From positions 62,001 through 126,000 of the forward strand of contig NZ_JAGSYH010000001.1 in assembly GCF_025685685.1 (NCBI RefSeq): 64,000 nt of DNA, given 5' to 3'. The notes beneath the pieces were generated by a model that did no database searches, was not told where the DNA came from, and saw only the letters and a program-made list of their open reading frames with translations. This DNA is from Acidicapsa dinghuensis (GTDB lineage Bacteria; Acidobacteriota; Terriglobia; Terriglobales; Acidobacteriaceae). The translations under genes and the position numbers were made by a program. Shown here piece after piece: positions 38,678 to 54,751 of this stretch; the stretch's first letter is position 1, and the number at the start of each line of letters is the position of its first letter.

Positions 38678-39961
38678 CTACTCTTCGGACGGTTGCAATT
38701 CACCGGAGAGCGGCGCATCCTCGGCTTGCCTCCTGCCGTAGGCCCTATAACGAAAGACCTTCGTCTGGCGCAACGCATCCAGTGTCCAAGTAGTGCTCCA
38801 ATGTACACCGAATTCGAGAAGCAACATGGCGCCAGCGAGCACGAGCAAAGCGAAACAAAATAAACCCGTACCGAAGCTACCGGTAAGATCTTTCAGAGCG
38901 CCGATCGCAGAGGGAAGGAAGAATCCGCCCAATCCTCCAGCCGCCCCAATGATTCCGGTCATGATCTCAATATGAGCAGAGTACCGTTGCGGAGCGATTT
39001 GGAAAACAGCACCATTGCCCATTCCGAGCATGCCCATCGCCAGGAAAAGCATCGGTACAACAAGAGAAACGGGAGGAAGACTGCTGATGACTGTGAGAGC
39101 GATAGAGACGCCCGCAAGCAATAAAAGTAAAAGACGATAGCCTCCAATTCTGTCGGCAATCCAACCGCCAACCGGGCGGAGGAAGCTTCCTGCGACGATA
39201 ACAAGCGTGGCAAAATCGCCCGACTGTACTTTGCTTAAGTGATACTGATCGTGAAAGAACATCGTGAGAAAACTCGACAACCCGACAAAGCCGCCAAAGG
39301 TAAGGCTATAGAGAAAGCAGAGCCGCCAGGTGTCAACCGTGATGAGCAGTTGAGCATATTGCGGCCATTGTTTTGGAGCGGATCGGTTTGGACTATCTTT
39401 TGCAAATAGAAAGAAAAACGCGAGCACGCAACAGACAGGAATCAACGCGAGCGCGAAGACAGAGTGCCAACCATAATGCTGAGCCAGACGCGGACCGAAG
39501 AATGTGGCGATTAGCGAACCGGCGTTGCCTGCTCCTGCAATACCCATCGCCAAGCCCTGATGTTCGGCAGAGTACCAGCGTCCAGCCAGCGGCAGAGCCA
39601 CGGCGAAACTAGCGCCGGCAATGCCAAGCAGAAATCCGATGAGATAGAACTGCCATAATTGCGAAGCAAAGTGCCACCCAACGATTAGTGGAATCAGCGA
39701 AAATAAAAGGCCGGTTAAGCCGGCGCGGCGTCCTCCGATGCGGTCGGCCACGACTCCAAGAATAGGACGAAAAAATGAACCGCCCAATAATGGAATAGCG
39801 GTCAATAGTCCTTTCTGCGTTGCTGAAAGGTGCATCTGTTCCGCAATAAAAGGAGTCAAAGGTCCGAAGAGAACCCACACCATAAAGCTGACGTCGAAAT
39901 AGAGAAAGGCAGAGACGAGCGTGGGAAGATGGCCGCTCGCAAGAAACGATTTCTTGTTCAT
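38678..39961 (-). CDS. narK: NarK-type nitrate/nitrite transporter (MFS)
   Basis: The 427-residue membrane protein has about twelve hydrophobic helices and the NarK-family marks: WVLFGPLTPFIAEQMHLS near the start, GGSFFRPILGVVADRIGGRRAG and a second half with GSFLRPVGGWIADRIGGYR. AGGAG precedes the ATG. It is the last gene of the minus-strand nitrate operon, about 120 bases after the nitrate reductase gene. In this setting it would import nitrate and possibly export nitrite. Assignment to the assimilatory NasA-like branch rests on context. Confidence 0.9.
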   Translation of the reverse strand: MNKKSFLASGHLPTLVSAFLYFDVSFMVWVLFGPLTPFIAEQMHLSATQKGLLTAIPLLGGSFFRPILGVVADRIGGRRAGLTGLLFSLIPLIVGWHFASQLWQFYLIGFLLGIAGASFAVALPLAGRWYSAEHQGLAMGIAGAGNAGSLIATFFGPRLAQHYGWHSVFALALIPVCCVLAFFFLFAKDSPNRSAPKQWPQYAQLLITVDTWRLCFLYSLTFGGFVGLSSFLTMFFHDQYHLSKVQSGDFATLVIVAGSFLRPVGGWIADRIGGYRLLLLLLAGVSIALTVISSLPPVSLVVPMLFLAMGMLGMGNGAVFQIAPQRYSAHIEIMTGIIGAAGGLGGFFLPSAIGALKDLTGSFGTGLFCFALLVLAGAMLLLEFGVHWSTTWTLDALRQTKVFRYRAYGRRQAEDAPLSGELQPSEE

Positions 39962-40084: not shown

Positions 40085-42289
40085 CTATGCGGGATTGCCT
40101 GAAGAACGTTCTACGCGGACAGCGCATTGCTTATAGTTAGGTTCGCGCGAGATGGGGTCGAATGCGCTTTGAGTGATTTGATTCGCATTCGTTTCAGCAA
40201 AGTGGAATGGCAGAAAGACCTGCCCTGGAGCAACAATCTCGGTGATACGCAACTCGATTTTGCTTACGCGCCCGCGCGCAGAAATCACCTCGACCCGATC
40301 ATGCGCCTGAAGATTAAGTTGCTGTGCGTCCTTTGGATTCATTTCGAGCCACGCGCGCGGTGACATACGCTGCAGAATGGATATGGCTCCTGTCTTGGTG
40401 CGTGTATGCCAGTGCTCCACAGTGCGGCCGGTGTTGAGGATCAACGGAAATTCAGAATTTGGCTGTTCCGGAAATGGTTCCCATCTAGTCGACAAGAGGC
40501 GCGCCCGCCCATCATCGGTTTCGAATTGCCCATTGCTGTAGAGCCGGCGCGAAGCGGTCGCCCTCGATTTCTCTCCGATAGGATATGGCCACTGAACACC
40601 GCACGATTGATCGAGTAGCTCGTAGGTCATGCCAGAGTAGTCGCAGAGGCGACCTGCGGACACGCGACGCCACTCATCGAAGGCATCGCGCGGCTCACGC
40701 CAGTCGGGAAACAGTTCTTCCCGACAACCCAGATGTTCAGCGACGGCGAGGAAGATATCGAAGTCTGAGCGCGCTTCCGCAGGCGGCGCAACAGCAGCAT
40801 TCACCTTGCTTACACGGCGCTCAGAATTGGTGTAGGTGCCTTCTTTTTCGCCCCAGATTGCTGCGGGAAGGACGAGGTCGGCCAGTTCCGTCGTAGGAGT
40901 GGGATGAAATCCGTCCTGCACAACAAGAAAATCCAGATTCCCGAGCGCGTGTTTCAGCACGTCGATGTTCGGGAATGAAACCAGCGGGTTGGTTCCGAGA
41001 ATCCAAAGCGCGCGAATCTTGCCGGCTACGGCACCCTCGATGATATCGGGGTAGGCGAGACCACGCTGCGTTGGAATGCGCTCCGCTGATATGTTCCACA
41101 AGCGGGCAATCTCCCGGCGATCCATTTCGCTTTCAAACTTGCGATATCCAGGAATGCCCGAGGTGAACCCGGTCTCGCGCGTGCCCATTGCGTTGCACTG
41201 ACCGGTGATGGAGAAAGGAGAAGCTCCTTTGCGTCCGATGTTCCCAGTGATTAGCGCGAGGTTGTTGATAGCGTTTACGGTTTCGGTGCCTTTGGTACTG
41301 TGGTTCACCCCCATCGTCCAGCCGATGAACGCGGCCTTTGCGTTGGCATAAAGGAGCGCGGTCTTGCGAATTAGCTCCGGTTCGAGGCCTGTGATCTGCG
41401 CAGCGTAGTCGAGTGTGTATGGAGTCAGAGACTCCCGTAAATCTTCCAATCCCGACGTATGTGATGCGACAAAGCTCTTGTCATAGAGATCTTCGTCGAT
41501 GACGATGCGCAGCAGGCCATTGATGAGCGCCAGATCGGAGCGCGGTTTCACGGGCAGATAGATGTCCGCCATCATTGCAGTTTTGGTTACGCGCGGGTCG
41601 ACGACAATTAGTGTCTTGGATTGGTTTGCCTCTAGCCGCGTGCAAAGGATGGGATGGTTCTCTGCGACGTTGGCTCCGATGAGCAAGATTACGTCTGCAT
41701 GTTCCAGATCTTCGTAAGCGCCGGGTGGCCCATCGCTGCCGAAGGATCGCTTATATCCAGCCACGGCTGTGGACATGCAGAGCGTGGTGTTGCCGTCGTA
41801 ATTCCGTGTACCGAAACCAAGCTGCACCAGTTTGCCCAGCGCATAGAACTCCTCGGTTACAAGCTGACCAGTGCTGATGATGCCCAGTGACTCCGGTCCG
41901 TATTTGCACTGTACCGCGCGGAACTGCTCGACCATTGTCCCAATTGCATCATCCCAATTCACGCGCTCAAGCTGGCCATTCTTGCGCAGAAGCGGAAACC
42001 TGGCGCGCCCCTCCGCTTCAATCGTGTAGTGTTCCGCCAGTCCTTTGGGACAGAGCTTGCCGGCATTCACCGGATGGGCACGATTACCGCGCACGCTCAC
42101 AACATGGCCATCCTTGACGCCCAACTGCATTCCGCAACCGACAGAGCAATAGCCGCACGTGCTATTGACCCAGCGATCAGCCTGCTTGCGCGAAGACGTA
42201 AAGCCCAGCACGGGGTCTTCACTATAGCTGTACTTTGAGGAGCGGATATCGAGGCCGGCTTTACGCGCGAACCAGCGCATCAGGCTCAT
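40085..42289 (-). CDS. Molybdopterin nitrate reductase, assimilatory (NasC/NarB-like)
   Basis: The 734-residue protein is a molybdenum bis-MGD oxidoreductase. A [4Fe-4S] site is formed by CGYCSVGC (about residues 45-52) and LCPKG (about residue 80). The molybdenum cysteine is in LCMSTAVAGYKRSFG (about residue 172), and the C-terminal domain holds NTGRTVEHWHTRTKTG. There is no twin-arginine signal, so it is cytoplasmic, like assimilatory nitrate reductases. Its start codon overlaps the stop of the DmsBC-like gene (ATGA), so translation is coupled. It should reduce nitrate to nitrite; electrons probably come from the DmsBC-like partner, which would make this a quinol-linked form, unlike NADH- or ferredoxin-linked NasC/NarB. 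That last point is inference. Confidence 0.88.
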   Translation of the reverse strand: MSLMRWFARKAGLDIRSSKYSYSEDPVLGFTSSRKQADRWVNSTCGYCSVGCGMQLGVKDGHVVSVRGNRAHPVNAGKLCPKGLAEHYTIEAEGRARFPLLRKNGQLERVNWDDAIGTMVEQFRAVQCKYGPESLGIISTGQLVTEEFYALGKLVQLGFGTRNYDGNTTLCMSTAVAGYKRSFGSDGPPGAYEDLEHADVILLIGANVAENHPILCTRLEANQSKTLIVVDPRVTKTAMMADIYLPVKPRSDLALINGLLRIVIDEDLYDKSFVASHTSGLEDLRESLTPYTLDYAAQITGLEPELIRKTALLYANAKAAFIGWTMGVNHSTKGTETVNAINNLALITGNIGRKGASPFSITGQCNAMGTRETGFTSGIPGYRKFESEMDRREIARLWNISAERIPTQRGLAYPDIIEGAVAGKIRALWILGTNPLVSFPNIDVLKHALGNLDFLVVQDGFHPTPTTELADLVLPAAIWGEKEGTYTNSERRVSKVNAAVAPPAEARSDFDIFLAVAEHLGCREELFPDWREPRDAFDEWRRVSAGRLCDYSGMTYELLDQSCGVQWPYPIGEKSRATASRRLYSNGQFETDDGRARLLSTRWEPFPEQPNSEFPLILNTGRTVEHWHTRTKTGAISILQRMSPRAWLEMNPKDAQQLNLQAHDRVEVISARGRVSKIELRITEIVAPGQVFLPFHFAETNANQITQSAFDPISREPNYKQCAVRVERSSGNPA

Positions 42290-44016
42290 GCCGCCTCCTG
42301 CGCCAAGTACTCGCTGGCCATGTTCGTGGGAACCACCGTTACGAAAAAAAGATAACGGCCAATGAATTCACTACTGACCATCAATAATGCGATCGTGATC
42401 CGAATCCAGGTAGTAGCCGCGAGCGGCAGGAGCGCAGTGCCTGTACACGCCAACGCGATGCGAATCAGCAAATGATTCGAAAAGACTCCGGTAAGCAGCT
42501 GCCATGAACCGTGCAATTCGTGCACCTTGGACCGGCCCAGGCGTGCCAGTTTGAGTCCGATGGTCATAAGTGCAAGGATGAAGCCCCAAAAGACCGCGTA
42601 TCGTGCGTCTTCTGCACCACGAGTGAGAATGTCGGCTCCGCAAGCTCCTAACAACACAGTTGTGCTTCCGAACTCAGCAACAGTGAGTGGTGACTTCCAT
42701 GCAGGGCGTCCCGGCACTAGATAGAGTCTCGCGCTCACCGCGACTCCGCACATTCCAAGGACAGCCGTCAACGCACCCAGCCAGCTTGTGCCGCGAACGC
42801 CAAACCAGAGAGTTGCCGAATAAGCTGTTGCCGCAAGGGCGAACAGTGTGAAGAGGAGCACCTCGCGGCTGAGCCACGACCGGCGCCACATCTTCAAGGC
42901 ACGCATCGCGTGGATAGGTCTGCCGAGATGCAAAGTGGATGCCGTAAGGGCGAGCATCGCCATCAGAAGAGCGACCAGCGCCGCGGTACGATGCGATTGG
43001 GCCGCAAAAACCTGCAAGCAACAGATGGCAGTGAATGCGCCGACGGAGAGTTGGGTAAGTACTGTCATCACAATCAACGGCCAGTGCGCATGCTCCGGGT
43101 GAAGCTGATTCAGATCAACTTTGCTCACATCGGCTGGCAGCTTTGCCGGGAGAGTAATGCGCGTCGTCGAGATGCTGTCATCGGCTGAAGGCATGCCTGG
43201 AGAGTTGGCTGGCCCCCGGTAATGTTCTCGCCATTCGGCGACCTTTACTATTTCGATACGAATAGCATCTTCAGGGCATGCGGCGGCACACGCAGGCTCT
43301 TGACCTCGTGTAAGCCTTCCATAACACATGTCGCATTTGCCCACCACGCCGCGCTCGGCGTTGTACTGCGGTACACCATAGGAGCAGTTCCACGTGCAGT
43401 ATTGACAGCCGATGCAGGCATCCGCACTGTGGCGCACAATTCCAGTCAGGCCGTCCTTGGTGTACGCTTCCACTGGGCATCCAGTCATGCAAGTGGGTTC
43501 AAGGCAGTGATTGCAGCCCATCGACAGGTAGTGGCGACGCGTCTGTGGGTATACGCCGCCTTCGATTTCACCGACACGCCGCCAGAGAATATCTGCAGGG
43601 TTGCCGTTTTGTTCATTGCAGGCTACGACACAGCACTTGCAACCGATACATTTCGTCATGTCGAAATGAAAGCGATATTGTTCGCCATGCCCAGGAGTGC
43701 GGGGCATGCGATTTTCCGCACCTACTCCACAGGAAGAGGGTGCTGATATTTCAGCCTGATCCGTCGGCACAAGGGAGCTCGCGTTAGTCAGGCGAAGAAA
43801 ATTTCCGTCTTCGTAAATTTGTGTAAGCAGAGGAAGTTCCAAGCTGGCTCCTGTTAATTGCGAAGAGATGTTGAGGCACAGTTTCCCGCAGGCGTCTACA
43901 CAGTGAGTGTGGCGCTGTAGTGTCAGAAGAATGTGCGTGCGATCATCGGCCGCTCGGGCCGGGCTCTTCGCGGAGCCAACTGATTCCGACTCCCGTGTTT
44001 CGGAGGCTGCCGGCAT
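42286..44016 (-). CDS. DmsB-DmsC-type fusion: four-cluster ferredoxin plus membrane anchor
   Basis: The 576-residue protein joins a DmsB-like electron-transfer part to a DmsC-like anchor. The first part carries four cysteine groups for [4Fe-4S] clusters: CIGCKCCVVAC, CNHCLEPTCMTGC, CIGCQYCTWNC and CDMCYGRLTRG with CAAAC. From about residue 325 to the end there are roughly eight membrane helices, as in DmsC, which takes electrons from menaquinol. It would hand electrons to the nitrate reductase encoded next. The ATG at 44016 lies in a hairpin (CCGGC/GCCGG, 44010-44026) that could hide the start; no better start was found in the first 110 residues. It is the first gene of the nitrate operon. 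Confidence 0.85.
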   Translation of the reverse strand: MPAASETRESESVGSAKSPARAADDRTHILLTLQRHTHCVDACGKLCLNISSQLTGASLELPLLTQIYEDGNFLRLTNASSLVPTDQAEISAPSSCGVGAENRMPRTPGHGEQYRFHFDMTKCIGCKCCVVACNEQNGNPADILWRRVGEIEGGVYPQTRRHYLSMGCNHCLEPTCMTGCPVEAYTKDGLTGIVRHSADACIGCQYCTWNCSYGVPQYNAERGVVGKCDMCYGRLTRGQEPACAAACPEDAIRIEIVKVAEWREHYRGPANSPGMPSADDSISTTRITLPAKLPADVSKVDLNQLHPEHAHWPLIVMTVLTQLSVGAFTAICCLQVFAAQSHRTAALVALLMAMLALTASTLHLGRPIHAMRALKMWRRSWLSREVLLFTLFALAATAYSATLWFGVRGTSWLGALTAVLGMCGVAVSARLYLVPGRPAWKSPLTVAEFGSTTVLLGACGADILTRGAEDARYAVFWGFILALMTIGLKLARLGRSKVHELHGSWQLLTGVFSNHLLIRIALACTGTALLPLAATTWIRITIALLMVSSEFIGRYLFFVTVVPTNMASEYLAQEAA

Positions 44017-44220
44017 TCTGAGCCGGTAAGGAACGAAGCGAATTCGGAGAACTCACTTCGCTCGGGAGTAGTTGCGTCAGAGCATAACGATAATTTAGAT
44101 TCTGTGCAAGCGGAAATCGAAATCGCGCTGTTTGGGCGGGTACTTGCAGTGTCTTTATCGCATTCCGGCAAGTCTATTCTTAGTGTCTTAAGGGAACGGC
44201 GGAAGAAAGCCGCTGAGATA

Positions 44221-44234
44221 AACTGAAGTCAGTT
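44221..44234. promoter_or_regulatory. Inverted repeat in the nitrate-operon/hemD divergent region
   Basis: AACTGAAGTCAGTT is a 6-2-6 perfect inverted repeat in the middle of the 320-base divergent region (44017-44336) between the DmsBC-like gene and the HemD-GAF-ANTAR gene. Its position suits an operator for either gene. Two further stems lie just downstream toward hemD: 44261-44279 (AAATCA/TGATTT) and 44278-44292 (TTCTTC/GAAGAA). Confidence 0.4.
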
Positions 44235-44336
44235 GATCGACCCGAGGGGCGTAGAGTGTCAAATCACCGGTTCTGATTTCTTCTATGAAGAAGAACTTGT
44301 GGGCTTGTTTCGTATTCCCATTTAACGAGTTACTGT

Positions 44337-46004
44337 ATGGCGACGACAAACTTCAGCGGCATTCGTGTCCTCAGTCTTGAGTCGCGCCGCGCCGTTGAAG
44401 CGGGCAAGCTGATTCGCATGTATGGAGGCGAACCGCTCTCCGCTCCCGCGATGCGGGAAATCCCCCTGAATTCCGATGGGCCTGTGATCGAGTTTGCTGA
44501 AGCGTTGATAAGCGGAGCATTCGATCTCGTCATTTTCACGACGGGCGTCGGCGTTCGAACCCTTATCAAGACAGTTTCAGAGCGCACTGACCGCGAGAAG
44601 TTTCTCAGTGCGCTGCGTTCCGCGAAGATTGCCGCTCGTGGGCCGAAATCATCCAGCGCTCTCCGCGAGGCTGGAATTCCCGCCACAGTAGTCGCCCCGG
44701 AACCATTCACATGGCGTGCTCTCGTACAAGCGATTGAGGAAAAATTTGGAGGTGATCTGAATGGAATGAACATCGCCGTTCAGGAATATGGCACCTCCAA
44801 TCCCGAACTTCTCACCGCTCTTGCAGAAAAGAGCGTTTCGATTACGCGGGTGTTGGTCTATCAGTGGGCTCTGCCAGAAGATATGCAGCCGTTGCGCGAG
44901 GCTGTCATTGCACTAGCTCACGGGCATGTCGATGTCGTGCTCTTTATGAACGCTGGACAGGTTGCGCATCTCTTCCTCATGGCGGAGCGCATGGGGTATA
45001 CCGAGGCGCTTTATGAGGGGTTTCGTTCCACTGTGATCGGCTCTATTGGGCCGAGCACGACCGAGGGCCTCTCCATGTATCGGCTCACTCCCGACTTCGA
45101 ACCATCGCAGTCGAAGATGGGGTTTCTCGTCAAGGAAATTGCCGAAAATGCTGAGAAGCTGCTGAAGCAAAAGCGTGCGGCGGCTTCTCTTCATGTCTCG
45201 AACAGCACCACAGGGGCGATAAGCCCGCTTCTCACGAATGATTTCGCTGGTTCTCAGGTTGCCAAGCCCGCGATCTCCGGCGTGGACTTCCTTCACGAGA
45301 TTGGCAGCCGGATGGCGGCATCTGATCCACTGCACAGCGTGCTGAATCGAATTGTCGACTTCGCATGTTCTCTCATCCAATGCGATTCCTGTTTTGTCTA
45401 TGTCCTGGAAGGCGATCAACTGGTATTGCGCGCGTCGAAGAATCCTCACTCTGACCTTGTCGATCGTCTTGGCATATGGCTCGGCCAGGGAATCACAGGG
45501 TGGGTCGGTTGGCATCGCGAACCCGTCGCCATTCCTGAAAAAGCTCTCAAAGATCCGCGTTTCCAGCGCTTCAAGAACCTGCCGGAAGACACCTTCGAAG
45601 CATTCCTTTCAGTACCGATCCTGTGTCGCAGTAAATTGATCGGCGTGATCAACTTGCAACACCGTAAGCCTTATTACCACAGCGAGCAGGAAGTGCGGTT
45701 GCTTACGTTAGCAGGATATCTCGTCGGTGCCGAATTGGAGCGGGCCCGGCTGGAAAGCGAGAATCTGGAACTCTCCGACCGCCTGGAATCCCGGAAGCAG
45801 ATTGAGAAAGCCAAGGGAGTGTTGCAGCGCGACTTCGGGCTCGATGAAGATACTGCCTACAAAGCCCTGCAGCGCGAGAGCAGGCAGCGCCGCAAATCAA
45901 TGCGCGACATCGCTGAAGCAATCCTGCTGAATGACGATCTGCGTAAAACGCGGTGGTCATTGGCGGGCCAGGTGAGCGAAGAAGATGTGTCTTCTGGAGC
46001 ATAA
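44337..46004 (+). CDS. HemD-GAF-ANTAR fusion regulator/enzyme
   Basis: This 555-residue protein has three parts. Residues 1 to about 265 resemble uroporphyrinogen-III synthase (HemD), with the typical start RVLSLESRRAVEAGKL and TTGVGVRTL. HemD makes the common precursor of siroheme, heme and cobalamin. Residues about 320-470 are a GAF sensor domain (CDSCFVYVLEGDQLVLRAS, GQGITGWV). Residues about 480-541 are an ANTAR domain (IEKAKGVLQRDFGLDEDTAY and SMRDIAEAIL), which binds paired hairpins in nascent RNA and prevents termination. It is encoded divergently from the nitrate operon and directly upstream of the siroheme nitrite reductase. It may therefore sense a ligand by GAF, control nitrite reductase mRNA by ANTAR and supply the siroheme precursor. 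The coupling is inference. Confidence 0.85.
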   Translation: MATTNFSGIRVLSLESRRAVEAGKLIRMYGGEPLSAPAMREIPLNSDGPVIEFAEALISGAFDLVIFTTGVGVRTLIKTVSERTDREKFLSALRSAKIAARGPKSSSALREAGIPATVVAPEPFTWRALVQAIEEKFGGDLNGMNIAVQEYGTSNPELLTALAEKSVSITRVLVYQWALPEDMQPLREAVIALAHGHVDVVLFMNAGQVAHLFLMAERMGYTEALYEGFRSTVIGSIGPSTTEGLSMYRLTPDFEPSQSKMGFLVKEIAENAEKLLKQKRAAASLHVSNSTTGAISPLLTNDFAGSQVAKPAISGVDFLHEIGSRMAASDPLHSVLNRIVDFACSLIQCDSCFVYVLEGDQLVLRASKNPHSDLVDRLGIWLGQGITGWVGWHREPVAIPEKALKDPRFQRFKNLPEDTFEAFLSVPILCRSKLIGVINLQHRKPYYHSEQEVRLLTLAGYLVGAELERARLESENLELSDRLESRKQIEKAKGVLQRDFGLDEDTAYKALQRESRQRRKSMRDIAEAILLNDDLRKTRWSLAGQVSEEDVSSGA

Positions 46005-46071
46005 GCCAGCCTACGGATCCAACAGGGTACTTGTGTCTGAAGGCAACTTTGCATAAGATACTTCTCAAGGT

Positions 46072-46123
46072 GAGACTCGGCTGTCTCCCTTTCCTGCTAG
46101 CCCTGCACCATGCCGTGCCAGGG
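46072..46123 (+). promoter_or_regulatory. Paired hairpins in the nitrite reductase leader, possible ANTAR target
   Basis: Two stems lie in the 245-base leader between the ANTAR gene and nirA. The first is GAGAC/GTCTC (46072-46087) with hexaloop TCGGCT. The second is CCCTGCAC/GTGC-C-AGGG (46101-46123) with one bulged C and hexaloop CATGCC. Known ANTAR targets are two tandem hairpins with six-base loops that conserve A at position 1 and G at position 4. Here both loops have six bases and G at position 4, but not A at position 1. No poly-T terminator follows, so the assignment is weak. Confidence 0.35.
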
Positions 46124-46249
46124 TATTCGAACTAAAAATCACTGCGTCACGCGCTGCAACGTGCAACGCTCGCTGCCGTTATCGCCGTCATTTCAGGCGA
46201 TCGTCGAGACGCTTCAGCACAACTGTTTCACAAGCAAAGGGCATTCGGC

Positions 46250-48034
46250 ATGGAATCTCTTGCACCCAACAATCCGGCGGCATTCAATTCCGACCAGAAG
46301 GAATATCTTCTCGGTTTCTTTGCGGGCGCAATGCAGCGGGCCGTTCGGCCGTTCGCAGGCTACACCGCAGCAGGTCTGCTGACGGATGATCCCGCGTTGG
46401 GCTCTGTCAATTGCGCAGAGCCAGCGGAGGAAACTGTTCACGGGACGCCCGCATCGGACCTGAGCCGGGAAGAACTGTGGAAGTATGAGCAGAACCCTCT
46501 CGATATCTGGGACAAGATTATCGCGCATGCGGACGAGGACCGCGCTCCCGAAGCCGAAGACGTTTTTCGATTCAAGTACCATGGCTTGTTCTACGTAGCT
46601 CCCGCGCAGGACTCGTTCATGCTGCGGCTGCGTGTGCCTGGCGGGATTATCAAGGCGCATCAGATGCGAGGTTTGGCTGATATAGCTGAACAGTGGGGAG
46701 CAGGCCGCGCTGATATCACAACGCGCGCGAATCTGCAGATACGCGCGTTCCAGCCGAAGAACATTGTGCGCGTCCTAACAGGCGTGCAAGCGCTCGGGCT
46801 CACGTCGCGCGGCTCCGGCGCCGATAACATCCGGAACATTACGGCTTCACCCCTTTCCGGCATTGATCCGAATGAATTAATAGACGTGAACCCGTTTGCA
46901 CTAGCTCTCCATCACTACATTCTGAATTCGCGTGACCTCTATGAATTGCCGCGCAAATTCAATGTTGCATTCGATGGTGGTGGCACTATCAGTGTAGTCG
47001 CCGATACCAATGACATTGGCTTTTGCGCGGTGCGCATTGGCGAGGGGCGCATTGTTCCGGCTGGTGTGTATTTTCGTGTACTGCTTTGCGGCATCACAGG
47101 ACATAAGCAGTTTGCTTCTGACTGCGGACTGTTGTTGCGTCCTGAGCAGTTGATCGCTGTCGCCGCTGCCATGATTCGCGTATTCATCGAACATGGCGAT
47201 CGCACCGACAGGAAAAAAGCGCGGTTCAAATATCTGGTTGATAAATGGGGAGTGGATCGGTTTCTTTCCGAGACGGAGAAGCGCCTTGCCTTTCCTTTGT
47301 TGCGCGTATCTGCTGAAGAGTGCGAACCGCTGAGCCAGGTCAATCGCGCGGCGCATATAGGAGTTCACCCGCAGATTCAGGAGGGACTACATTACCTCGG
47401 CGTATCTGTTCCGGTTGGACGACTGCCAGTGAACCAAATGCGCGCTCTGGCCGATATTGCCGAAGAATTCGGCAACGGGGAGTTGAGACTGACTGTTTGG
47501 CAAAATCTCATTATTCCGAACATTTCTTCAGAACGGGTAGACGCAGCTGTTGGATGTCTCCATGCTGCGGGGCTTGACTGTGCTGCGGGAGCGGTTCTGC
47601 GCGGGACCGTGGCGTGCACTGGAAACCGTGGCTGCCGCTACGCGGCAACCGACACCAAGACGCATGCCATTGAACTCGCGAACCTTCTCGATGCCAGGTG
47701 GAAGATTGATCAGCCGATCAATCTTCACGTCACGGGCTGCCCCCACTCTTGTGCGCAACATTATGTTGGAGACATCGGCCTTTTAGGTGCCAAAGTCAAA
47801 GGTGAGGAAGGCTATCAAGTTGTGATCGGCGGTGGATGCGACCAGGATCAAGGTCTGGCACGCGAACTGATTCCTTCTGTCGCCTACTCTGAGCTTCCTC
47901 CAATGCTGGAAGGCCTTTTTGCGGCATTCGAAGAACTGCGCAATCCAAGCGAGTCTTTCGTTGATTTCAGCCGTCGGCATACCATTCCTGAACTGCAATC
48001 GTTTCTGACCTTGAAGGAGTCCGTCTCGCAATGA
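46250..48034 (+). CDS. nirA: Nitrite/sulfite reductase, siroheme (NirA-like)
   Basis: The 594-residue protein has two copies of the nitrite/sulfite reductase ferredoxin-like half-domain and the siroheme [4Fe-4S] cysteines: ACTGNRGCRYA (about residues 455-462) and GCPHSCAQHY (about residues 497-501). It reduces nitrite to ammonium (or sulfite to sulfide) with six electrons. The context with nitrate reductase and NarK points to nitrite. AAAGGGC lies upstream of the ATG. The downstream flavoprotein gene overlaps its stop (ATGA), so its electron donor is likely that NADPH flavoprotein and not ferredoxin. Confidence 0.9.
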   Translation: MESLAPNNPAAFNSDQKEYLLGFFAGAMQRAVRPFAGYTAAGLLTDDPALGSVNCAEPAEETVHGTPASDLSREELWKYEQNPLDIWDKIIAHADEDRAPEAEDVFRFKYHGLFYVAPAQDSFMLRLRVPGGIIKAHQMRGLADIAEQWGAGRADITTRANLQIRAFQPKNIVRVLTGVQALGLTSRGSGADNIRNITASPLSGIDPNELIDVNPFALALHHYILNSRDLYELPRKFNVAFDGGGTISVVADTNDIGFCAVRIGEGRIVPAGVYFRVLLCGITGHKQFASDCGLLLRPEQLIAVAAAMIRVFIEHGDRTDRKKARFKYLVDKWGVDRFLSETEKRLAFPLLRVSAEECEPLSQVNRAAHIGVHPQIQEGLHYLGVSVPVGRLPVNQMRALADIAEEFGNGELRLTVWQNLIIPNISSERVDAAVGCLHAAGLDCAAGAVLRGTVACTGNRGCRYAATDTKTHAIELANLLDARWKIDQPINLHVTGCPHSCAQHYVGDIGLLGAKVKGEEGYQVVIGGGCDQDQGLARELIPSVAYSELPPMLEGLFAAFEELRNPSESFVDFSRRHTIPELQSFLTLKESVSQ

Positions 48035-49824
48035 CCCCTACTATTCCCTTCATTCCCGACAACGCTCCTTTCACGCAAGAGCAGAGAGCCTGGCTCAACG
48101 GATTGCTCGCAGGGATGTTTTCGAGCGCACCACAGGCGGCAGTTACAGCTAAGCCATCGAGACGCGTTGCGGTGCTCTATGGCTCGCAATCGGGAACGGC
48201 GGAGAGCATGGCACGGAAGCTAGCCAAGGAATTGAAGGCGCAGGGCCACGCACCCGCTCTTTCCACGCTGGTAGGTTATACGCCAGCGGCTCTTGCCACG
48301 GAATCGTGCGCGCTGATCCTTGCAAGCACGTACGGCGATGGCGATGCCCCAGACGGCGTACAGCCCTTCTACGAACAGCTCTGCTTGGAACACTTCCCGT
48401 GCATGGATAAACTGTCTTATGCAGTCTTCGCGCTCGGCGATCGGCATTACGAGCACTTCTGCAAGTTCGGTAAGGATCTCGATTCCAAACTCGCCTCCCT
48501 GGGTGCGAACCGCCTTGCAGACCGCGTCGATTGCGATGTGGATGTAGAAGCCCCGTTTGCTCAATGGAAAACGGCGATGATTGCACGCCTAAATGAGGAT
48601 TCGCCTCTTTCATCGAGAAAGGCACCAGGAATAACGAAGCAATTGAACGCCCTACAATTGGCGGAATCTTCCGGAAATCCCGAAGCTCCAACAGCTAAGG
48701 CGTTCACCCGCGATCATCCATTGCTCGCGTCCGTAATCGATAAGAAATCTCTGACACATGTGGCATCCACAAAGTCCACACTTCATGTCGCCCTTTCGAT
48801 CGAAGGCACAGGACTTCGATATGAAGCCGGTGATGCCTGTGGCGTTATCCCAACGAATGATCTAAACCTCGTCGCTGAGATACTGCAGAAAATGCGCTTT
48901 AATGGCAATGAGCGCGTTCCGGGTGTAAAGACAAGTACTACAACTCTTCACGATGCCTTGACGCATGAACGCCAAATTACCCGCCTGAATCGCAAGATCA
49001 TTCAAGGATTTGCCACTCGTGGCAATTGCACGCCGCTTCTGGATCTTCTATTGCCTGAACATCAAATCGATCTCGATGCCTATGCTTACGATCGTGGCCT
49101 CATCGATCTGCTTACCGAGTACCCTGGCGTAATTGACGATCCCAACGAACTAGTGGGTTTGCTGCCTAAGCTCACACCAAGGCTTTATTCCATCTCGTCC
49201 AGTCCGGCTGCGCATGTTGGCCAGATCCATACAACAGTCGCCGTTGTGCGCTTCACAGCCCACAATCGCGATCGTGGCGGCGTATGTTCCACATACTTTG
49301 CAGACCGAACTTCTGTTGCGGACCGGCTCCCGATTTATATTCAGCCCAACAAGAAATTCAAATTACCGTCTGACTCAGACGCACCCATCATCATGATTGG
49401 CCCAGGAACCGGTATTGCCCCGTTTCGAGGCTTTCTGCATGAACGCCGGGCGCTTGGTCATAAAGGTAAGAACTGGCTCTTCTTTGGTGAACGAAGCTCA
49501 GCTACTGATTATTTATATCGAGATGAACTTGAATCGATGTATGTGGACGGTCATCTGGCGCGCTTGGATACTGCGTTCTCGCGTGACCACAGTCACAAAG
49601 CGTACGTTCAGGACCGAATGATCGAGCAGGCGCAGCAGTTTTGGAGCTGGCTACAAAACGGTGCGAGTATTTATGTTTGTGGCGACGCCTCGCGGATGGC
49701 GAAAGACGTGCATAGCACCCTCTGTCGAATCGTACAGGAACAAGGTGCAATGTCGGGGCAAGCCGCGGAAGAGTATGTCGGTATTCTCAAAGAGGATCAT
49801 CGATATCATCGCGACGTGTATTGA
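48031..49824 (+). CDS. CysJ-like NADPH flavoprotein reductase
   Basis: The 597-residue protein resembles the alpha subunit of sulfite reductase. The flavodoxin-like FMN domain carries LYGSQSGTAESMA (about residue 48) and STYGDGDAPDG. The FAD domain carries RLYSISSSPAAHVGQ (about residue 383). The NADPH domain carries MIGPGTGIAPFRGFL (about residue 455), and the C-terminus ends in Tyr. It passes electrons from NADPH through FAD and FMN to a siroheme enzyme. Overlap of its start with the nirA stop indicates translational coupling and a stoichiometric complex. CysJ is the sulfite-reducing counterpart; here the partner is probably nitrite reductase, so I give no gene symbol. Confidence 0.9.
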   Translation: MTPTIPFIPDNAPFTQEQRAWLNGLLAGMFSSAPQAAVTAKPSRRVAVLYGSQSGTAESMARKLAKELKAQGHAPALSTLVGYTPAALATESCALILASTYGDGDAPDGVQPFYEQLCLEHFPCMDKLSYAVFALGDRHYEHFCKFGKDLDSKLASLGANRLADRVDCDVDVEAPFAQWKTAMIARLNEDSPLSSRKAPGITKQLNALQLAESSGNPEAPTAKAFTRDHPLLASVIDKKSLTHVASTKSTLHVALSIEGTGLRYEAGDACGVIPTNDLNLVAEILQKMRFNGNERVPGVKTSTTTLHDALTHERQITRLNRKIIQGFATRGNCTPLLDLLLPEHQIDLDAYAYDRGLIDLLTEYPGVIDDPNELVGLLPKLTPRLYSISSSPAAHVGQIHTTVAVVRFTAHNRDRGGVCSTYFADRTSVADRLPIYIQPNKKFKLPSDSDAPIIMIGPGTGIAPFRGFLHERRALGHKGKNWLFFGERSSATDYLYRDELESMYVDGHLARLDTAFSRDHSHKAYVQDRMIEQAQQFWSWLQNGASIYVCGDASRMAKDVHSTLCRIVQEQGAMSGQAAEEYVGILKEDHRYHRDVY

Positions 49825-54514: not shown

Positions 54515-54751
54515 TCAGCAACCGTGTTTGCAGCGGGCGATGATTGCGTCGTGGAGCCGTTTGCGAATCGTATCCGGCAGGTCGTAGACCTCATGCGAGC
54601 GGTAGATCTCGATGGTTTTGCGCGTCGTGCTGAGAGTCACCTCACAGTGTTCGCAGCCGCTCAGATGCTCTTGCAATTGCGCGCGCGTCTCAGCGGGCAG
54701 GGAGTCGTCAATCAGCTCATCGAGGAGCGCAATAAACTCAGTGCAGGTCAC
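54515..54751 (-). CDS. Zinc-finger anti-sigma factor
   Basis: The 78-residue protein has a zf-HC2 type zinc-binding anti-sigma motif: TCTEFIALLDELID at the start and HLSGCEHC in the middle (His, then Cys-x-x-Cys). It would bind the ECF sigma factor encoded directly upstream; the two frames overlap by four bases (54748-54751). No membrane segment follows, so it is a soluble, probably redox- or zinc-responsive anti-sigma factor. Confidence 0.85.
   Translation of the reverse strand: MTCTEFIALLDELIDDSLPAETRAQLQEHLSGCEHCEVTLSTTRKTIEIYRSHEVYDLPDTIRKRLHDAIIARCKHGC

Follow-up and report, generated by a model that had tools for sequence, protein, structure and literature searches.

Three described regulators offer the closest comparisons for the gene considered here. 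In Klebsiella, NasR brings an ANTAR output to a nitrate assimilation operon, where its target consists of tandem hairpins whose hexanucleotide loops are closed by a C:G pair and have G as their fourth base (G4) (PMC7496416; PMC3369931). The classical ANTAR target is described as two hairpins (PMC3369931), and selection with NasR favored A1/G4 loops closed by a C:G pair (PMC7496416). In the reported EutV-RNA structure, G4 is the sole base-specific contact, made by R142, K149, E160 and Y164, and A1 is untouched (PMC8934654). NnaR of Streptomyces and Mycobacterium is a regulator of nitrate/nitrite assimilation with a HemD-like N-terminus, in genomes that hold another HemD too (PMC6277429), and its output is an OmpR-type DNA-binding domain (PMC11162112). 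The HemD part of NnaR is reported to be enzymatically inactive (PMC6277429; PMC11162112), and one of these accounts calls the ligand of the HemD module an open question and the architecture restricted to Actinomycetes (PMC11162112).

The window, a 64,000-nt stretch of the Acidicapsa dinghuensis genome, contains a gene in which an RNA-binding ANTAR domain is joined to a HemD of a second type, and which therefore unites a NasR-type output with an NnaR-type HemD module. The gene, its domains and its neighbors are as follows.

38678–39961, minus strand: NarK-type nitrate/nitrite transporter (profile search)
40085–42289, minus strand: NasA-like molybdopterin nitrate reductase (domain/profile search)
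42286–43842, minus strand: Fe-S/membrane anchor protein, DmsB-DmsC-like (true start probably at TTG 43842)
44337–46004, plus strand: HemD-GAF-ANTAR fusion protein, 555 aa (frame and domain matches)
44406–45131, plus strand: HEM4 domain, a HemD of the second type (residues 24–265, 121 bits)
45330–45737, plus strand: GAF domain, with PtsP GAF domains as closest solved relatives (residues 332–467, 59 bits)
45768–45926, plus strand: ANTAR RNA-binding domain PF03861 (residues 478–530, 63.8 bits against a cut-off of 27.3)
46250–48034, plus strand: nirA, nitrite reductase (NF007126, score far over the cut-off)
48031–49824, plus strand: CysJ-like flavoprotein (4-nt overlap with nirA)

ORF and Pfam profile searches bear out the initial annotation on two counts, in that HEM4, GAF and ANTAR lie in one uninterrupted frame of 555 codons, each match exceeding its Pfam cut-off, and the gene stands between nitrate and nitrite reduction genes, with the nas operon on the minus strand and nirA-cysJ on the plus strand. 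The ANTAR domain is the only one in the 6.2-Mb genome. For the GAF domain, sequence search placed the PtsP GAF domains nearest and also matched NifA. A PDB fold search with the fusion returned U3S and PtsP GAF folds and no novel fold, and an AlphaFold2 model based on 18 sequences had a mean pLDDT of 68, with a poor GAF part. The Fe-S/anchor gene probably starts at TTG 43842, which is preceded by AGGAG, rather than at ATG 44016, because likeness to several relatives begins at residue 59.

The fusion aligns over its full length with those of 17 related loci at 57–90% identity, and the same three-domain frame in related loci rules out a sequencing accident. HemD and GAF-ANTAR also occur together at 24 more distant loci. 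With relatives drawn from whole genomes and named contigs, and 6 duplicate loci dropped, 45 distinct fusion loci were obtained; the named fusion contigs come from Acidobacteria, most of them with the title Acidobacteriaceae or Acidobacteria bacterium. Within the fetched stretches, 37 of the 45 loci adjoin nitrate/nitrite genes (nirA in 33, a nas gene in 34), and the fusion lies upstream of nirA on the same strand, as in the window, at 12 loci and divergent from nirA at 21. The other eight (L036, L037, L038, L070 and L088–L091) have neither nirA nor nas: L037 and L038 are close to contig ends, and the fusions of L070 and L088–L091 have other or unknown surroundings, with no nitrate genes in the fetched stretch (neighbors of four scanned). 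At L036 (8000–9200, equal to L114 9770–10705), nirA-cysJ is present only as fragments, and the fusion and the leader element described below are retained.

Second copies of the fusion at L088 (7013–8554), L089 (9153–10742) and L091 (2373–3929) have no adjoining nitrate genes, and each is followed by a frame of 513–529 aa without a Pfam match. At L040 (9574–11191, genome G031), an apparent frameshift in a G-rich stretch breaks the GAF part of the fusion, and at L092 (8176–11883) a GAF-ANTAR gene without HemD comes after the glycine cleavage gene gcvP.

The fusion also tracks NirA across this family of soil bacteria. Among 74 family genomes, a non-random and mutually related draw for which one source covered all genomes with ANTAR matches and only some without, NirA scored above the cut-off in 23, every one of which has the fusion, and in 0 of the 45 that lack it. 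The 51 genomes without NirA thus comprise these 45 and six that carry the fusion (G002, G004, G012, G013, G119 and G187), the first three of which are 84–87% complete. In another family of the same order (L046, genome G046), the two modules are encoded apart from each other at a nirB locus, by a GAF-ANTAR gene divergent from nirB and a HemD gene downstream of it, and the hairpins TGGCAC[CTCGCC]GTGCCA and GCTC[CATGAC]GAGC start 94 and 59 nt ahead of nirB.

New here is a probable RNA target of the fusion, which we recognize in both flanking leaders. The nirA and nas leaders each bear tandem hairpins in which a C:G pair closes a hexanucleotide (once 7-nt) loop with G4.

46031–46059, plus strand: TTGTGT-17-TAAGAT, probable promoter of nirA (picked by eye in the alignment, where relatives conserve it; not in the consensus scan)
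46072–46087, plus strand: nirA leader hairpin P1 GAGAC[TCGGCT]GTCTC (alignment and folding)
46100–46124, plus strand: nirA leader hairpin A GCCCTGCAC[CATGCC]GTGCCAGGGT (alignment, covariation and covariance model)
44081–44109, minus strand: probable nitrate operon promoter TTGCAC-17-TATGCT (by eye; the consensus scan does not list it)
44010–44026, minus strand: nitrate operon leader hairpin CCGGC[TCAGAAT]GCCGG, with a 7-nt loop (folding and relatives)
43962–43977, minus strand: nitrate operon leader hairpin B GGCTC[CGCGAA]GAGCC (folding, relatives and model match)

When close nirA leaders are aligned, a conserved −35/−10 pair is followed by P1, GAGAC[UNNGNN]GUCUC, and then by hairpin A with the loop CAUGCC; distant nirA leaders have hairpin A plus a further hairpin B, GCUC[CNNGNN]GAGC. 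The window has P1 and A without B in its nirA leader, and the 7-nt-loop hairpin and B in its nas leader. Hairpin B recurs in 14 of 15 nas leaders, a Y1/G4 7-nt-loop hairpin lies upstream of it in 11 of the 15, and an additional stem-loop lies downstream of it in several relatives. C..G hexaloops occur in all 21 divergent-type nirA leaders, against 2.45 expected from shuffles, and window-type nirA leaders have T..G and C..G hexaloops in 11 of 12 each, against 1.24 and 1.62. A..G hexaloops were seen in 0 of 12 window-type and 5 of 21 divergent-type nirA leaders (1.26 and 1.69 expected). We looked for the classical A1/G4 pair of hairpins and rejected it for the window type, since none of the 12 leaders has it and loop position 1 is C or U.

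The arms of hairpin A covary, and their observed pairing was reached by 0 of 2000 shuffles for 19 sequences and by 0 of 5000 for 12 non-redundant ones, a count that used the 19 of 33 nirA leaders with a recognizable hairpin A and left out 14. In a tool-based count on 13 leaders, three pairs had changed on both sides, a number matched by 10 of 500 shuffles, and hairpin B was unchanged. The overall stability of the window leaders is not unusual (z −0.99 and −1.11), a promoter scan gave nothing beyond chance in the window or L072, and an Rfam search of 43700–46400 returned one match, far under its gathering score.

A covariance model (R1) was built from 13 nirA leaders with the window left out. 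In the 6.2-Mb genome to which the window belongs, its top match is the nirA leader (46100–46148, E 0.006), and nas hairpin B ranks third (E 1.7). The searched loci contain 20 other nirA leaders; R1 matched 17 of them with E no higher than about 0.1, and L104, L081 and L118 did worse. Of 11 further genomes, nine have nir genes, and in eight of these the nir leader came top, with second place in G296; two of the eight successes are training genomes, which leaves 6 of 7 nir-bearing genomes outside training. The nirA leader of G008, untrained and on another contig, scored 53.6 bits, and in G119 and G187, which have the fusion and no NirA above the cut-off, R1 found nothing below E 0.019. Chance-looking matches went down to E of about 0.006 (L104 3606–3659, L120 3425–3480), and weak matches were therefore counted only if best in the genome or inside a leader. 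The element was not found in G038, G054 and G056, class or order relatives with nitrate/nitrite genes, nor ahead of narFeS in L118. The hairpin B pattern has 10 matches (5+5) genome-wide against 13 (8+5) for the reversed pattern, so we claim no wider regulon; its match at window position 54715 is taken as chance.

The ANTAR domain appears equipped to read such loops. With the correspondence to EutV read by hand through alignment to 6wsh, the equivalents of the G4-contacting residues, R486, K493, E504 and Y508, are identical to those of EutV (PMC8934654) and invariant in 18 fusion sequences. EutV K143, K147 and R175 correspond to K487, K491 and R519, position 491 being K or R among the fusions, whereas four other RNA contacts differ (R168 to Q512, M172 to R516, N173 to Q517 and R177 to S521), so that the Met172 plug of EutV is Arg516 here. 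EutV further differs in its REC input and A1 loops. As in the NasR targets, P1, A and B all have the C:G closing pair and G4, whereas NasR has a NIT-domain sensor, A1 loops and an intrinsic terminator after its hairpins.

Conserved leader hairpins of the shape gripped by ANTAR domains thus lie beside the fusion, which therefore most likely controls these genes by holding RNA. Our main reading, to which we assign a probability of roughly 0.77, is that the fusion regulates nitrate and nitrite assimilation as a one-component, RNA-binding protein that acts via the leader hairpins of nas and nirA-cysJ. The architecture and its conservation, gene linkage, NirA co-occurrence, leader hairpins and retained G4-contact residues are read from the sequences themselves, and from them we infer hairpin binding by ANTAR, the sign of its effect, the ligands, and a possible antitermination output. 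The fusion would probably dimerize through the long helix before ANTAR; GAF and HemD would form the sensory part, the former probably for nitrogen status or nitrate, the latter probably reading a porphyrin-pathway metabolite. At the 5′ ends of the nirA-cysJ and the divergent nas transcripts, ANTAR would then grip the C:G-closed, G4-loop hairpins of the leaders, and this grip may decide whether the transcripts are completed or used. A nitrogen-status ligand for GAF is our presumption from the PtsP and NifA-type families. In targets of the NasR/EutV type an intrinsic terminator overlaps the second hairpin. The terminator scan found no intrinsic terminator beyond chance in the window leaders or L072, and therefore antitermination, Rho-dependent control and translation are all candidate outputs. 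ANTAR control of nitrite reductase expression, as the initial annotation had proposed, is supported by the conserved G4-loop hairpins of the nirA leader and the retained G4-contact residues, and those of the nas leader extend this support to nitrate reductase. If the binding holds, the ANTAR target rule widens from A1-G4 to Y1-G4 and gains a searchable RNA model.

Alternatively, the repeats might be DNA operators (inverted repeats) for some other DNA-binding regulator, with the ANTAR protein acting elsewhere. This would fit the invariance of the hairpin B arms (GCTC/GAGC) in 13 leaders, arms which the search pattern itself fixes. However, the arms of hairpin A vary with compensation, its asymmetric loop retains C1 and G4, the probable promoters are upstream of the repeats, and otherwise dissimilar hairpins agree in nothing but the size of the loop, its C:G closure and G4, which are the features read by ANTAR. 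We therefore regard the operator explanation as very improbable.

What the HemD part contributes is a separate matter. It is not the housekeeping enzyme but a member of a second HemD group, to which the N-terminus of NnaR is akin. A second HEM4 protein of the genome, encoded in a hemA-hemC-hemD operon, scores 203 bits against 124 for the fusion, and a high- and a low-scoring HEM4 are both present in 16 of 19 genomes. G020 and G029, whose GAF-ANTAR lacks a HemD-like part, have only the high-scoring HEM4, and G014 (88% complete) has only the low-scoring one. In a tree of 49 HemDs (midpoint root), canonical HemDs make up one side (100/99), fusion HemDs form one group (95/84) beside standalone relatives, and NnaR sits on its own long branch, its placement unsettled. 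With NF005568, the fusion and its standalone relatives score 127–153 bits, NnaR of two Mycobacteroides genomes 564–565, and canonical HemDs of two Nitrospirota-type genomes 73–78; NnaR of L176 contains Trans_reg_C. ARGxK and a Tyr followed by Arg/Gln-Trp are common to the fusion, its standalone relatives and NnaR, in place of the IGPAT-like and AYxT motifs of canonical HemD, and Tyr175 is invariant across all HemD groups. The fusion part resembles uroporphyrinogen-III synthase in its HEM4 fold, whereas it groups apart from the housekeeping HemD that the same genomes encode, has altered motifs and is fused to GAF-ANTAR.

Second-type HemDs also occur in other company. In other Acidobacteria they are fused to uroporphyrinogen decarboxylase (HemE; L047 9637–11634, L122 6168–8132), and on a contig titled Deltaproteobacteria (L125 2524–8840) one lies within 6.5 kb of a NirA-like and a precorrin-2 dehydrogenase-like protein.

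The HemD part might sense a metabolite of the siroheme pathway, such as hydroxymethylbilane, uroporphyrinogen III or siroheme itself, and gate the nitrate/nitrite reductase RNA through ANTAR, which would tie production of the siroheme enzyme to the ability of the cell to make its cofactor; we put this forward tentatively, at somewhat less than even odds. Were it true, Acidobacteriaceae would have in the fusion a counterpart of NnaR that works on RNA, and its targets, with C/U1-G4 loops and without an intrinsic terminator, would make up a new class for ANTAR domains. It is unlikely, by our estimate, that the domain is instead an active uroporphyrinogen-III synthase devoted to siroheme for the nitrite reductase, enzyme and gene control being combined in one protein. 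The nearest solved structure is the Thermus U3S, which has in common with it the signature TTGVGVR, ARGxK, YG, and VY or PY; Tyr175 and GPxT are retained, and both the HemE fusions and the L125 relative near NirA and the precorrin-2 dehydrogenase-like protein speak for catalysis. Against it stand the stronger canonical hemD in its operon and the coexistence of both kinds in 16 of the 19 genomes, the replacement of canonical TSxN, RAxxAR and FTSSS in the residue comparison, and the reported inactivity of the NnaR counterpart (PMC6277429; PMC11162112). With the Thermus enzyme as closest solved structure, the residues do not tell whether activity has been lost. Of the two findings that together would have spoken against the coupling of cofactor supply in the initial annotation, another hemD is present, in the operon, and a loss of key residues is not clear. 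That the part is a mere relic of fusion, without catalytic or sensory role and with GAF as sole sensor, seems improbable: the genome does have a canonical HemD elsewhere, and at distant loci GAF-ANTAR is better conserved than the HemD part, but the latter still shows 45–60% identity in 24 of 24 distant fusion loci, and L046 retains a related HemD as a separate gene beside nirB.

An NnaR-like HemD module with an RNA-binding output in another phylum, its probable RNA targets located, makes the question of HemD sensing testable. A literature search for ANTAR with HemD or uroporphyrinogen-III synthase, with most subscription journals outside its scope, found no paper.

The neighboring enzymes have features of their own. 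The nirA-cysJ pair (46250–49824) is kept beside most fusion loci, and NirA and the CysJ-like flavoprotein possibly form an NADPH-fed nitrite reductase of mixed ancestry. The partner of the nitrate reductase (42286–43842) resembles DmsB fused to a DmsC-type membrane anchor, which suggests that the quinol pool supplies an assimilatory nitrate reductase here.
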